Assembly (NCBI GenBank): GCA_012719495.1
Contig: JAAYAG010000113.1
Coordinates: 1 to 64,000, forward strand
From: Bacteroidales bacterium
GTDB taxonomy: Bacteria > Bacteroidota > Bacteroidia > Bacteroidales > Prolixibacteraceae
Direction of reading: 5' to 3'
DNA length: 64,000 nt
A program made the translations under genes and the position numbers. The notes under the pieces were generated by a model that worked only from the letters and a program-made list of their open reading frames with translations, was not told where the DNA came from and made no database searches. Positions 42,184 to 46,249 of this stretch are shown here, piece by piece (the stretch's first letter is position 1; each line of letters opens with the position of its first letter).

Positions 42184-43467
42184 ATGAGTGAACGGAATAA
42201 AATTGTAGCGGTTGTCGATATTGGATCAAACACCGTGATTTGCCTTGTCGGGAGCGAAAGCCCCGAAAAAAAACTCGAAGTATTGGGCCATGCCATGGTC
42301 GCTTCGGCAGGGGTAAGGCGCGGAACAATTTTTAATATCGATGAAACTGTCGATGCGGTAAAGAAAGCAGTTGCCAAGGCATCGGCGAATCTCGAGATTG
42401 AAGTACAAAAGTTGTATGTAAATCTTTCTGGGCCAAAATTGCGTACCGAAAGGCGGGTGTTGCGTAAAGTAATCGATCAGGGAAAGATCATTACCAAGCT
42501 TGACATGAAGATGCTTTTCGAAGAGGCAAAGTCTACGCCTCAACAACCCGGCGAGAAGGTGTATCACGTTGTAAACCAATCGTACTCTGTAGATGGTGAA
42601 ACCGGGATATTTAATCCGGTGGGAACCAGCGGGTCGGAACTTCTGGCTGAATACAAGTTGGTTGTTGGCCCCGAGATGTACGAGGAAAAACTTCGGACAA
42701 GTTTGAATAAAGCTGGTTTCGAAATGGTTCGTACTATAGCTTCGCCAGTTGTTGCTGCAGAATCGGTTATAGCCGACGAAGAAAAGGAAGCTGGTGTTGC
42801 CGTTGTCGATCTCGGTGGAGGGACTACATCAATCGCTGTTTATTACGAAAATGTGCTTCGCTTTGTATCCGTTATTCCATTTGGTGGCAATGTGGTAACT
42901 CTCGATATTAAAGAAGGATGCAGCATTTTGCTCCGTCAGGCCGAATCGCTCAAAGTTCAGTATGGCGCCGCTCTTGGCGATTTTGTGCCATCGAACAACG
43001 TGGTGACCATTCCCGGAATTAACGGGTGGGAGCCGAAAGAAATTTCGTTTAAAACCTTGGCTTATATCATTCAGGCCCGTATGGAAGAAATTGTCGAAAG
43101 TGCATTCTACCAGATTCAGCGGAGTGGTTTTGCCGATAAACTTGGAGCCGGTATTGTATTGACCGGAGGAGGTGCAAAGCTCGAAGGCTTGAGACAGCTG
43201 GTGCGTTTCAAAACAGGAATGGACGTACGGGTTGGTTTCCCCATTGTGAGTTTGACTCCTGCTCAGGAGAAAGTACTCGAAAGCCCACAGTTTGCTACTG
43301 CATTTGGCCTGCTGAAAAAAGCAGTAAAAGAAGAATGCTTGCAAAACGATGATATGATCGTGAAAAAGAAGAAAGAAGCCCCGGCTCAGCCTCGTCGAAG
43401 CTTTGGCGAAACAATGGTTAAAAAGCTTTCATTGTTTTTCAACGAGGAACAAGATTCAGAATTCTAA
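42184..43467 (+). CDS. ftsA: Cell division protein FtsA
   Basis: A 427-residue actin-like ATPase from the ATG at 42184; an earlier in-frame start at 42139 would overlap ftsQ. Motifs: AVVDIGSNTVICLVG (phosphate 1), VAVVDLGGGTTSIAVY (phosphate 2) and GIVLTGGGAKLEGL (adenosine). The 1C domain is present (residues 80-165). The last residues, MVKKLSLFFNEEQDSEF, form the amphipathic membrane anchor after a short linker. FtsA ties FtsZ filaments to the membrane. The same kind of end occurs in the next gene, the first ftsZ. Confidence 0.96.
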   Translation: MSERNKIVAVVDIGSNTVICLVGSESPEKKLEVLGHAMVASAGVRRGTIFNIDETVDAVKKAVAKASANLEIEVQKLYVNLSGPKLRTERRVLRKVIDQGKIITKLDMKMLFEEAKSTPQQPGEKVYHVVNQSYSVDGETGIFNPVGTSGSELLAEYKLVVGPEMYEEKLRTSLNKAGFEMVRTIASPVVAAESVIADEEKEAGVAVVDLGGGTTSIAVYYENVLRFVSVIPFGGNVVTLDIKEGCSILLRQAESLKVQYGAALGDFVPSNNVVTIPGINGWEPKEISFKTLAYIIQARMEEIVESAFYQIQRSGFADKLGAGIVLTGGGAKLEGLRQLVRFKTGMDVRVGFPIVSLTPAQEKVLESPQFATAFGLLKKAVKEECLQNDDMIVKKKKEAPAQPRRSFGETMVKKLSLFFNEEQDSEF

Positions 43468-43478
43468 AAACTAAGGAT

Positions 43479-44759
43479 ATGTCTGCTGATTTATTGAATT
43501 TCAATTGTGAACCCAACCTAACCTCTAATATTAAAGTAATTGGAGTAGGAGGGGGCGGTGGTAATGCAGTAAACTACATGTACCGCAAAGGAATTACCGA
43601 TGTAGGCTTTATTGTCTGCAACACCGATGCACAGGCATTGGCAAACAGTCCTGTTCCCATAGCGATTCAGCTTGGCGAATCACTTACTCAGGGGCGTGGG
43701 GCCGGAAATATGCCCGAATTGGGCGAACAGGCTGCTATCGAAAATATCGATGCAGTTGTTGATGTGCTTAAAGATCATACGAATATGGTTTTTATAACCG
43801 CCGGAATGGGTGGTGGAACGGGTACGGGAGCTGCTCCGGTTATTGCCGAAGCTTGCCGTAAACTTAATATCCTTACCATAGCCGTGGTTACTGTTCCGTC
43901 ACGTTCCGAAGGACGCAAACGCTTCGATCAGGCTATTCGCGGGGTTGAAAGAATCCGTGAACATGTGGATAGTTTGCTGGTAATCAACAATGAAAAAATA
44001 CGCGAAATATATGGGAATCTTCCTGCTTCGCAAGCTTTTGCAAAGGCCGACGAAATTTTGGCCACCGCGGTTAAAGGAGTTGCCGAAATCATTACCCTTC
44101 ACGGGAATATCAATATCGACTTTGCCGATGTACATACCGTGATGTCGGGAAGCAAAGTTTTCATTATGGGTACTGGTTACGCCGAAGGCGAAGATCGCGC
44201 CTTAGCTGCAACACGGGCTGCTCTCGAGTCGCCGTTGCTCGATAGTAACAACATAAATGGAACCCACGACATCTTACTTAATATTACCTCGGGGAAAGAT
44301 GAGGTAACTATTGGTGAAATTGGTGAAATAATTGAATACCTTCAAATTGAAGCTGGTTCTGAGGCAAATATCATTTGGGGTAACGGGTACGATTCTGCAC
44401 TCGATAATCAAATTTGTGTCACACTTATTGCTACCGGTTTCAATGTTAATCCATCAGCAATTCTTCAAGAATTCGACCGCCAACAAGCTCCCGTCGAGAA
44501 GTTTGAACTGAAAACTGAAATGGAGCCTGAAGAACTACAACCTTCTTTCATTGAAGAGGAAGAACCTGAACCGCAGATGGTAGAAATCGATCTTACTACC
44601 GAAACGATCCATCGCACTTCGGCTCAGTTGACAGAGCCTGTGAAAAACACTGATAAGCATCATATAAAAAGTAAACCAAAAGAAAAAGAGAAAATTGACA
44701 ACTGGTTTGTACGTCAGTTCAATAGTTTCTTTGAAGAAGATAGTAGTGAACTCGAATAA
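43479..44759 (+). CDS. ftsZ: Divergent FtsZ paralogue with FtsA-like tail
   Basis: A 426-residue tubulin-like GTPase. The GTP-binding loop GVGGGGGNAVNYM, the tubulin signature GMGGGTGTGAAP and the T7 synergy loop NIDFADVHTVM (with catalytic Asp residues) are intact, so polymerisation and GTP hydrolysis are possible. It differs from typical FtsZ in VPSRSEGRKR (usually IPFRFEGKRR, as in the next gene) and at the end. There is no C-terminal PAYxRR peptide for FtsA binding. Instead, after an acidic and then basic linker, it ends IDNWFVRQFNSFFEEDSSEL, an amphipathic stretch that aligns with the FtsA membrane anchor. It may attach to the membrane directly. It lies 11 bases after ftsA and 23 before the second ftsZ. 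Confidence 0.9.
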   Translation: MSADLLNFNCEPNLTSNIKVIGVGGGGGNAVNYMYRKGITDVGFIVCNTDAQALANSPVPIAIQLGESLTQGRGAGNMPELGEQAAIENIDAVVDVLKDHTNMVFITAGMGGGTGTGAAPVIAEACRKLNILTIAVVTVPSRSEGRKRFDQAIRGVERIREHVDSLLVINNEKIREIYGNLPASQAFAKADEILATAVKGVAEIITLHGNINIDFADVHTVMSGSKVFIMGTGYAEGEDRALAATRAALESPLLDSNNINGTHDILLNITSGKDEVTIGEIGEIIEYLQIEAGSEANIIWGNGYDSALDNQICVTLIATGFNVNPSAILQEFDRQQAPVEKFELKTEMEPEELQPSFIEEEEPEPQMVEIDLTTETIHRTSAQLTEPVKNTDKHHIKSKPKEKEKIDNWFVRQFNSFFEEDSSELE

Positions 44760-44782: not shown

Positions 44783-46249
44783 ATGGCAAATGATATTTTA
44801 ACAAACTTCGAGATGCCTCTCAATGAAGGAGCAATGATTAAAGTGATCGGAGTAGGGGGTGGCGGCAGCAATGCAGTAAATCACATGTGCCGCAAAGGCA
44901 TAAAAGATGTTGATTTTGTTGTATGTAATACCGATTCTCAAGCACTCGCCGATAGTCCGGTGAAAGTTAAAGTTAAACTTGGGGCATCGCTCACCGAAGG
45001 ACGTGGGGCGGGCAATAAACCCGAAATTGGCCGTCAGGCAGCAATTGAAAACATTGAAGATGTAAAAAAGGCCATAGGCAATAAAACAAAAATGGTATTC
45101 ATTACCGCAGGGATGGGCGGAGGAACTGGCACTGGTGCTGGCCCTGAAATTGCCAAAGCCTGTCGTGAAATGGATCTGCTTACAGTTGCTATTGTTACCA
45201 TTCCGTTTCGTAACGAAGGCAAACGACGGGTTGAACAAGCCATTGAAGGAATCCAGGAAATGGAAGGCCATGTCGACTCTTTATTGGTTATCAATAACGA
45301 GAAAATCAGGGAGATGTATGGCGACTTTAAGATTTCTGAAGCATTCTCTAAAGCTGATGATGTGCTGGCTACTGCTGCTAAAGGTATTGCCGAAATAATT
45401 ACTGTTCATGGATATATTAATGTTGACTTTGCTGATGTGGAAACTGTTATGCGGCAGAGTGGGGTGGCTCTTATGGGTTCTGCACGTTCGAAGGGCGAAG
45501 ACAGAGCAATAAAGGCTGTTGAAGAAGCGCTCAATTCGCCTTTGCTCAACAATAACAATATCAAAGGGGCACGCAATATTTTGCTCAATGTTACTTCAGG
45601 CGAAGAAGAAATTACCATGGACGAAATTGGTCAAATTACCGACTATGTTCAGTCCCGTGCTGGTTACGATGCCGATCTGATCTGGGGTAACGGACGCGAC
45701 GAATCGCTTGGCGACGAAATTTGTGTTACCCTTATTGCCACTGGATTTAGCAGTAGTTCTATTCCTGAAGTGTTGGCTACCAAGAAAGTGGAAAAATCGT
45801 ACCATACCTTGGTTGAAAGTCAGGCTCCAACGGTTACGGCTCAACCACGTCAGGTACGCCCCGGAAGCCCTGCTCAGCCTTCGAGGCCAACTGCACATAC
45901 GCAACAGCCAGTTCAACAACAGCCAAAACCAAAACAGGAGACCTTTAGGTTTGGTGCCGACCGTCCTTCCGACGGATTCGACAGCCTTTATCCTTCGGCA
46001 AAGCCTAGCCCGGTAAATCAGCAACCCCGCGAAGAGGAAAAGTTTGATTTTAACCGCGATTTTTATGGCGCAGGCGACGATGATATCGACAGGCTCGAAA
46101 ACATGCCTGCATACAAGCGCAGACTTGTCAGCACTAAAGGGCGCGAAGCCGGCGACGATAAAAAGGTTTCACGCTACTCTCTCTCGGCCGACAACAATGA
46201 GATATTCCTGAGTGAAAACAATGGATATCTTCACGATAATGTCGATTAA
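44783..46249 (+). CDS. ftsZ: Main cell division GTPase FtsZ
   Basis: A 488-residue FtsZ with GVGGGGSNAVNHM, the tubulin signature GMGGGTGTGAGP (Gly for the common second Ala) and the T7 loop NVDFADVETVM. VTIPFRNEGKRR is the form normal for Bacteroidota. After a long Gln/Pro-rich linker (about residues 335-425) comes ENMPAYKRR, the conserved C-terminal peptide that binds FtsA, followed by about 45 further residues. These features make it the main Z-ring protein, the preceding copy being the specialised one. It is the last fts gene of the operon. Confidence 0.95.
   Translation: MANDILTNFEMPLNEGAMIKVIGVGGGGSNAVNHMCRKGIKDVDFVVCNTDSQALADSPVKVKVKLGASLTEGRGAGNKPEIGRQAAIENIEDVKKAIGNKTKMVFITAGMGGGTGTGAGPEIAKACREMDLLTVAIVTIPFRNEGKRRVEQAIEGIQEMEGHVDSLLVINNEKIREMYGDFKISEAFSKADDVLATAAKGIAEIITVHGYINVDFADVETVMRQSGVALMGSARSKGEDRAIKAVEEALNSPLLNNNNIKGARNILLNVTSGEEEITMDEIGQITDYVQSRAGYDADLIWGNGRDESLGDEICVTLIATGFSSSSIPEVLATKKVEKSYHTLVESQAPTVTAQPRQVRPGSPAQPSRPTAHTQQPVQQQPKPKQETFRFGADRPSDGFDSLYPSAKPSPVNQQPREEEKFDFNRDFYGAGDDDIDRLENMPAYKRRLVSTKGREAGDDKKVSRYSLSADNNEIFLSENNGYLHDNVD

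Follow-up and report, generated by a model that had tools for sequence, protein, structure and literature searches.

The last genes of the division cluster in the window (the whole 64,000-nucleotide stretch of DNA that was analysed) are ftsA, ftsZ1 and ftsZ2, arranged in tandem on the + strand, and the first of the two FtsZs is likely to be self-anchored, by means of a short amphipathic, FtsA-like helix at its C-terminus. On the best reading of the sequences, FtsZ1 would be a self-anchoring fusion of old date, an FtsZ::FtsA-tail chimera, working next to an FtsA-anchored FtsZ2.

A tandem of two FtsZs, the first without CTP

The open reading frames and both tails were as the original prediction had described them. 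The features of the locus are:

42184..43467, + strand: ftsA, 427 aa; TIGR01174 291 bits versus a cut-off of 176
43414-43464, + strand: C-terminal tail of FtsA, MVKKLSLFFNEEQDSEF; best 11-residue moment 0.53
43479..44759, + strand: ftsZ1, 426 aa; FtsZ core intact, canonical CTP absent
44460..44687, + strand: linker of FtsZ1, residues 328-403; fast-evolving (dN/dS 0.197), Lys/Arg-rich near its end
44694..44756, + strand: FtsA-like amphipathic tail of FtsZ1, residues 406-426 (IDNWFVRQFNSFFEEDSSELE)
44783..46249, + strand: ftsZ2, 488 aa; canonical FtsZ with CTP (MPAYKRR) and terminal YLHDNVD; TIGR00065 358 bits

FtsA of the window ends in ...FGETMVKKLSLFFNEEQDSEF, and the conserved hydrophobic positions of the FtsZ1 tail are W409, F410, F414 and F418. 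The spacers are 11 bp (ftsA-ftsZ1) and 23 bp (ftsZ1-ftsZ2) long. A search of the 4.19-Mb, 99% complete genome with the Pfam tubulin/FtsZ model gave ftsZ1 and ftsZ2 only and no third FtsZ. The closest named relatives found were three Prolixibacteraceae MAGs, with 65-68% identity.

For comparison, we used arrays from the window's family (code f1, hereafter the family), which was taken as Prolixibacteraceae because the f1 loci L113 and L194 share FtsZ tails with the named contigs L003 and L011. Each of the 84 family rows is an array with ftsA and at least two FtsZs in the fetched stretch, so that the presence of ftsA in them is a matter of selection; arrays were merged if their first FtsZs had identical last 60 residues. 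The 78 last FtsZs are those with frames ending within the fetched DNA. Six named contigs standing in for duplicate family loci (L003, L004, L005, L008, L011 and L036) and two arrays whose stretch did not reach ftsA (L220 and L222) were counted apart. L223 (masked) and L242 (a fragment) had no usable tail. Searching the family, we found at least one FtsZ match in 96 of 100 genomes and two or more in 94 of 100.

By its core, FtsZ1 is an FtsZ. It scored 353.6 bits against the TIGR00065 equivalog model (cut-off 295.2) and contains both PF00091 and PF12327 of Pfam; the T4 sequence GGGTGTG and both catalytic Asp residues of T7 are conserved in all 84 family FtsZ1 rows. With these catalytic motifs intact, the protein would be expected to polymerise. 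AlphaFold2 modelled the core with confidence, the linker mostly at pLDDT 30-40, and residues 401-426 as a block of pLDDT 31-40 with a helix at 410-414 only, a low-confidence result that is uninformative about the tail.

Tethering of FtsZ to FtsA, ZipA or SepF is described as running via the CTP, the C-terminal peptide that binds the adaptor (PMC12583498). Employing the Bacteroidales form P-A-Y-x-R/K as the CTP pattern, we found it in 75 of 78 family last FtsZs and in 91 of 95 single FtsZs; the three last FtsZs without it were those of L143 (masked), L145 (whose frame ends early) and L196. The canonical CTP is absent from FtsZ1 of the window, and the 4 matches among 84 family first FtsZs were, by eye, chance matches in the linker. 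In none of 121 array entries, some of which are overlapping fetches of one locus and some cut at the end, does an FtsZ with the CTP precede one without it. FtsZ1 is thus an FtsZ by its core, yet not a CTP-bearing one.

Past its CTP, FtsZ2 has a conserved end (..NN.YLHDNVD up to the stop; window 46180-46246), which a loose pattern detected in 76 of 78 last and 1 of 84 first FtsZs. The canonical FtsZs of these Bacteroidales carry this same end.

Conservation and spread of the FtsZ1 tail

The tail singled out by the original prediction proved to be conserved in an alignment of orthologues. A W[FIL]xxx[FLW]-type motif, sought in the last 50 residues, was present in 83 of 84 family first FtsZs versus 0 of 78 last FtsZs, and also in 8 of the 8 arrays counted apart; it was found in none of 84 family FtsAs, 7 of which matched a looser pattern. 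These patterns were composed after the tails had been seen. At W409, F410, F414 and F418, the commonest residue accounts for 99, 89, 93 and 98% of 84 rows, and the mean share of the commonest residue is 33% in the linker, 60% at residues 406-420 and 80% in the core. In 19 within-genus pairs, dN/dS was 0.022 for the core, 0.197 for the linker and 0.028 for the tail (residues 406-422). Purifying selection acts on the tail as it does on the core. Constraint at the nucleotide level was unsupported, as synonymous pS in the tail (0.587) was not below that in the core (0.439).

The median of the best 11-residue moment was 0.63 for first FtsZs (n=84), 0.30 for last FtsZs (n=78) and 0.25 for single FtsZs (n=95); that of FtsA was 0.56 in the family (n=84) and 0.69 in single-FtsZ relatives (n=95). 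The helical-moment calculation proposed with the original prediction gave 0.73 for the window's FtsZ1 tail. Compared with shuffles of its own composition, a single first-FtsZ tail had a significantly higher moment (p < 0.05) in no more than 45% of cases (n=84). The family-mean moment profile at 100 degrees was not significant over 16 columns (p = 0.10) and gave p = 0.034 over columns +2 to +11. The terminal amphipathic helix of FtsZ1 is conserved in orthologues, with limited significance for any single tail. Ahead of the helix or tail, the mean K+R was 0.31 for FtsZ1 (94 rows) and 0.23 and 0.28 for FtsA; ahead of the CTP it was 0.08 for family FtsZ2 and 0.16 for single FtsZs. Two features count against an anchor: an acidic stretch, unfavourable for anionic lipid, follows the FtsZ1 helix, and several genera (among them those of L169, L183 and L199) have extra residues with Gly in the tail (e.g., WFYKNFGLGKLFED).

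FtsZ1 of G160 is without the W motif; it still ends in a strongly amphipathic helix, GMFDGIKKIFGKLVK, with a moment of 0.81. This locus (L196, G160:C134), from a small family genome (2.6 Mb, 84% complete), combines the unlike FtsZ1 helix with an FtsZ2 without the CTP pattern and an altered FtsA tail. Its anchoring system is possibly rewired.

Outside the family, the same arrangement was found in Marinifilaceae (Labilibaculum, Marinifilum and Ancylomarina), where all 12 last FtsZs have the CTP and none of the 12 first FtsZs does. Across the order, ten of 149 sampled genomes had at least two FtsZs per array (families f1, f16, f23, f32, f70, f85 and f106). Three arrays, L204 (G031), L205 (G145) and L206 (G069), contain three tandem FtsZs, of which the third is canonical; the first two are CTP-less, with two different kinds of amphipathic end. 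An exception was G085 (L210), in which the first FtsZ lacks the CTP and the helix is not at the very end. One genome of the window's family has, besides the tandem pair, a third, unlinked FtsZ-like gene (G164:C150:378394-379365; a frame of 374 aa, 37% identity).

Ten of 296 genomes in the class sample, the window's included, had two or more FtsZ matches. When eight of them were re-searched, a second full-length FtsZ was found in G672 only, unlinked; the others gave fragments or weak matches. In the phylum sample, also of 296, two or more matches were found in 20 genomes including the window's, and 17 of these belong to f135. Seven f135 genomes, of another class of the phylum (G290, G306, G313, G329, G340, G399 and G411), have extra FtsZ-like copies on other contigs, which upon re-searching were 31-39% identical to FtsZ2 of the window.

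In a quick tree, family FtsZ1 and family FtsZ2 each formed one supported clade, and FtsZ2 grouped with single-copy FtsZs. The AU test accepted family FtsZ1 together with Marinifilaceae FtsZ1, both alone (p 0.60) and with the middle members of three-FtsZ arrays added (p 0.62), family FtsZ1 with FtsZ2 (p 0.42), Marinifilaceae FtsZ1 with FtsZ2 (p 0.47) and all first FtsZs together (p 0.56). All constrained groupings fit the data, and the tree is compatible with one or several origins of FtsZ1.

Likeness of the tail to FtsA tails

To compare the tails, we built an HMM profile from 92 FtsA tails of single-FtsZ relatives, with zero FtsZ sequences in it, and set its threshold at the 99th percentile of 506 control C-termini. 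The tail of the window scored 5.8 bits, a value reached by 1 of the 506 controls. Among FtsZ1 tails, 94% of the 84 from the family and all 12 from Marinifilaceae passed the threshold; so did 73% of family FtsA tails (n=84) and 62% of 21 first or middle FtsZs from outside the family and Marinifilaceae sets. The corresponding figures were 5% for FtsZ2 tails (n=78), none of the 12 for FtsZ2 of Marinifilaceae, 2% for single FtsZs (n=95) and 4% for FtsZ1 tails after shuffling (n=840).

Gapless comparison with the 92 FtsA tails at 13 offsets, with controls treated likewise, gave a median best BLOSUM score of 54 for Marinifilaceae FtsZ1 (n=12), 38 for family FtsZ1 (n=83) and 16 for controls (maximum 40); the FtsZ1 tail of the window scored 42. 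Every control was outscored by 11 of 12 Marinifilaceae and 26 of 83 family FtsZ1 tails. Anchored at the right end, Labilibaculum FtsZ1 (...WFKDKFTQIFDNNDSSM up to the stop) and FtsA of the single-FtsZ loci L027 and L028 (...LFKRKFTEIFEENDSEM up to the stop) share 11 of 17 residues without gaps, which is the best identity of Marinifilaceae FtsZ1 to any FtsA tail; controls reached up to 9/17, and the window tail matched the L027/L028 FtsA tail at 8/17 with an offset of one. A terminal Met is found in 12 of 12 Marinifilaceae FtsZ1, 36 of 95 single-FtsZ FtsAs and 1 of 506 controls, and is rare in the window's family (5/84 FtsZ1, 3/84 FtsA).

Against shuffles that preserve the order of residue classes (hydrophobic, basic, acidic, other), the likeness was in excess in 11 of 12 Marinifilaceae FtsZ1 tails and in the window's (p = 0.025). 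Within the family, the same test was significant for 27 of 83 FtsZ1 and 18 of 84 FtsA tails, the latter serving as the positive control; it was also significant for 6 of 150 controls drawn from the 506 and 1 of 73 FtsZ2 tails. The Marinifilaceae rows all come from a single clade in which distinct tails are few, and they do not count as independent observations. In this protein-level comparison, common descent from the 3' end of ftsA has shuffle support in Marinifilaceae, in 27/83 family tails and, mildly, in the window.

The original prediction had started from the FtsA and FtsZ1 tails of the window itself. They do match without gaps over 11 columns, V-(K/R)-x-(L/F)-x-x-F-F-x-E-(E/D), and hydrophobic residues are spaced at i, i+4, i+7 and i+8; taken by itself, the pair (local score 26, shuffle p = 0.093) is not beyond chance. 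It is the relatives that place the feature as a whole well beyond chance, through the motif counts in first and last FtsZs, the scores under the FtsA-tail profile and the purifying selection on the tail. Compared with FtsA tails from other genera, FtsA of the same genome came only at the 53rd percentile as a match for the window's FtsZ1, although a mild excess of likeness to the own FtsA appeared at the genus level (p = 0.006). We therefore rejected recent copying from the neighbouring ftsA as unsupported for this genome, whose FtsZ1 resembles FtsAs of other genera as closely as its own; the event would be old. The suggested origin from FtsA holds up insofar as the Marinifilaceae tails match gaplessly up to the stop and beyond the hydrophobic/charge pattern; the recent copy from the adjacent gene does not.

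Proposed anchoring, alternatives and known systems

Membrane attachment by FtsZ1 itself is probable on these predictions. Since FtsZ1 has no CTP, the ordinary adaptor route should be closed to it, and the tail offers a direct one; given a conserved amphipathic C-terminus that resembles the end of FtsA and stands where the peptide for the adaptor would be, an anchor of its own, as the original prediction proposed, is the best reading, the binding being predicted. The GTPase core of FtsZ1 would polymerise like that of any FtsZ, alone or mixed with FtsZ2, and its helix, descended from an FtsA tail or remodelled to match one, would insert into the inner membrane. FtsZ2 would be tethered by FtsA through its CTP in the ordinary way. 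The division ring would then combine two sorts of subunit, FtsZ1 attached to the membrane directly and FtsZ2 through the adaptor FtsA. The statement 'would not need FtsA' is unsupported for the cell, whose genome retains FtsA as well as an FtsZ2 with the CTP alongside FtsZ1; because the CTP of FtsZ2 and the amphipathic tail of FtsA are both retained, FtsA has not been displaced, and only FtsZ1 itself would be FtsA-independent.

The tail could also be a protein-docking helix, a replacement for the CTP in which W-F-x-x-x-F-x-x-F-F binds FtsA or another division partner. Its near-invariant Trp and Phe residues look tighter than a lipid helix needs, the flank beside it is acidic, and its dN/dS is about as low as that of the core. 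We consider docking improbable, however, since FtsZ1 tails resemble FtsA tails, an unlike amphipathic helix (GMFDGIKKIFGKLVK) takes the place of the tail in G160, and other lineages have different amphipathic ends, such as GLQKMIKFFDD in L205. That FtsZ1 is a decaying or non-polymerising paralogue with a tail left over is scarcely credible. Any duplicate is a candidate for decay, and four family matches (G166, G167, G177 and G189) had a stop within the aligned stretch; but their frames are 415-441 aa long and include the tail, so the stop is the gene's own end. The low dN/dS of the core, the catalytic Asp pair and T4 loop intact in 84/84 rows, and the two or more FtsZ matches in 94/100 family genomes likewise argue against decay.

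Convergence concerns the origin of the helix: a duplicated FtsZ may have lost its CTP and evolved a helix of its own, FtsA-like since both proteins insert in the same membrane near their C-termini. It would account for the diversity of family FtsA tails (W motif in 0/84, or 7/84 by the looser pattern), for a match to the own-genome FtsA no better than to others (apart from the genus-level excess), for the unlike amphipathic ends in several FtsZ1 lineages, and for control C-termini reaching 9/17 identities. It does not readily explain why 11 of 12 Marinifilaceae FtsZ1 tails exceed pattern-preserving shuffles, why all 12 share a terminal Met that is found in 1 of 506 controls, or why 164 amphipathic control C-termini had a median score of 18 versus 54 in Marinifilaceae FtsZ1. 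We regard convergence as rather unlikely.

For an FtsA-derived tail, the simplest origin would be one tandem duplication that starts in the ftsA linker and ends in the ftsZ linker. Such an event would give ftsA - [ftsZ 5' part :: ftsA 3' tail] - ftsZ, placing the chimera between the two parent genes, as observed. The spacers, at 11 and 23 bp and with such divergence, are too short for the homology comparison expected from this model. In its full form, the scenario has one duplication with breakpoints in both disordered linkers and a chimera that has persisted in both Prolixibacteraceae and Marinifilaceae, may have formed again in other Bacteroidales (including some with three FtsZs) and co-polymerises with the FtsA-anchored FtsZ; we put it forward tentatively, at somewhat less than an even chance. 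The case also suggests that an anchoring module can pass from one division gene to its neighbour via disordered linkers.

Whether an adaptor such as FtsA is needed if FtsZ could hold the membrane itself has so far been asked with engineered FtsZ-mts. In FtsZ-YFP-mts, an amphipathic helix replaces the C-terminal hub, and dynamic rings form on bilayers in vitro with the anchors bypassed (PMC5979038). The design is like that of FtsZ1, but it is a laboratory construct, whereas FtsZ1 is natural and conserved across the family. Bacteria with a whole division cluster appear to run both anchoring solutions in one gene array; with the two side by side, and with cultured strains in Labilibaculum, Marinifilum and Ancylomarina, the question becomes testable in nature.

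A survey of the FtsZ family states that few bacteria have two ftsZ genes and that the extra copy lies outside the division cluster (PMC9871819). The tandem ftsZ1-ftsZ2 within the division cluster goes against that statement, as worded there, as a general rule. Among the matches listed, the titles and abstract openings of open-licence PMC articles (a scope outside which most subscription papers and all bioRxiv preprints fall) held no report of a self-anchored FtsZ in Bacteroidota, of tandem FtsZs with an FtsA-like tail or of an FtsA-derived FtsZ tail. The FtsZ1 tail is of the same type as the C-terminal membrane-targeting sequence of FtsA and is recognised by the FtsA-only profile; it differs in being on an FtsZ, not on the actin-like adaptor, and in its conserved Trp, absent from most FtsA tails here.

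Among wall-less bacteria, FtsZ of Mycoplasma with a terminal membrane-targeting sequence is likewise bacterial and has its own end as anchor. It is described as meeting the membrane by its N- or C-terminal end (Dutta et al. 2025, as cited in PMC12583498), and self-anchored FtsZs are reported in the same source from chloroplasts, Mycoplasma and Odinarchaeota. In chloroplasts, the C-terminus of FtsZ2 binds the adaptor ARC6 (PMC5471200), and FtsZ1 carries a membrane-binding motif at its C-terminus (Liu 2022 and An 2024, both as cited in PMC12583498); in Chlamydomonas, both FtsZ C-termini are reported to keep membrane binding (PMC12462475). The plant system thus also has two FtsZs, one adaptor-bound and one with a C-terminal membrane motif, but it belongs to an organelle and its adaptor is ARC6, not FtsA; we found no indication that the motif came from an adaptor gene. 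In Odinarchaeota, FtsZ1 is reported to be self-anchored by an amphipathic helix and FtsZ2 to be anchored by SepF (PMC12583498), which is the same split with an N-terminal helix, archaeal paralogues and SepF instead of FtsA. If our reading is true, the tandem described here would be a further independent split into a self-anchored and an adaptor-anchored FtsZ, repeating the division of labour of chloroplasts and Odinarchaeota.
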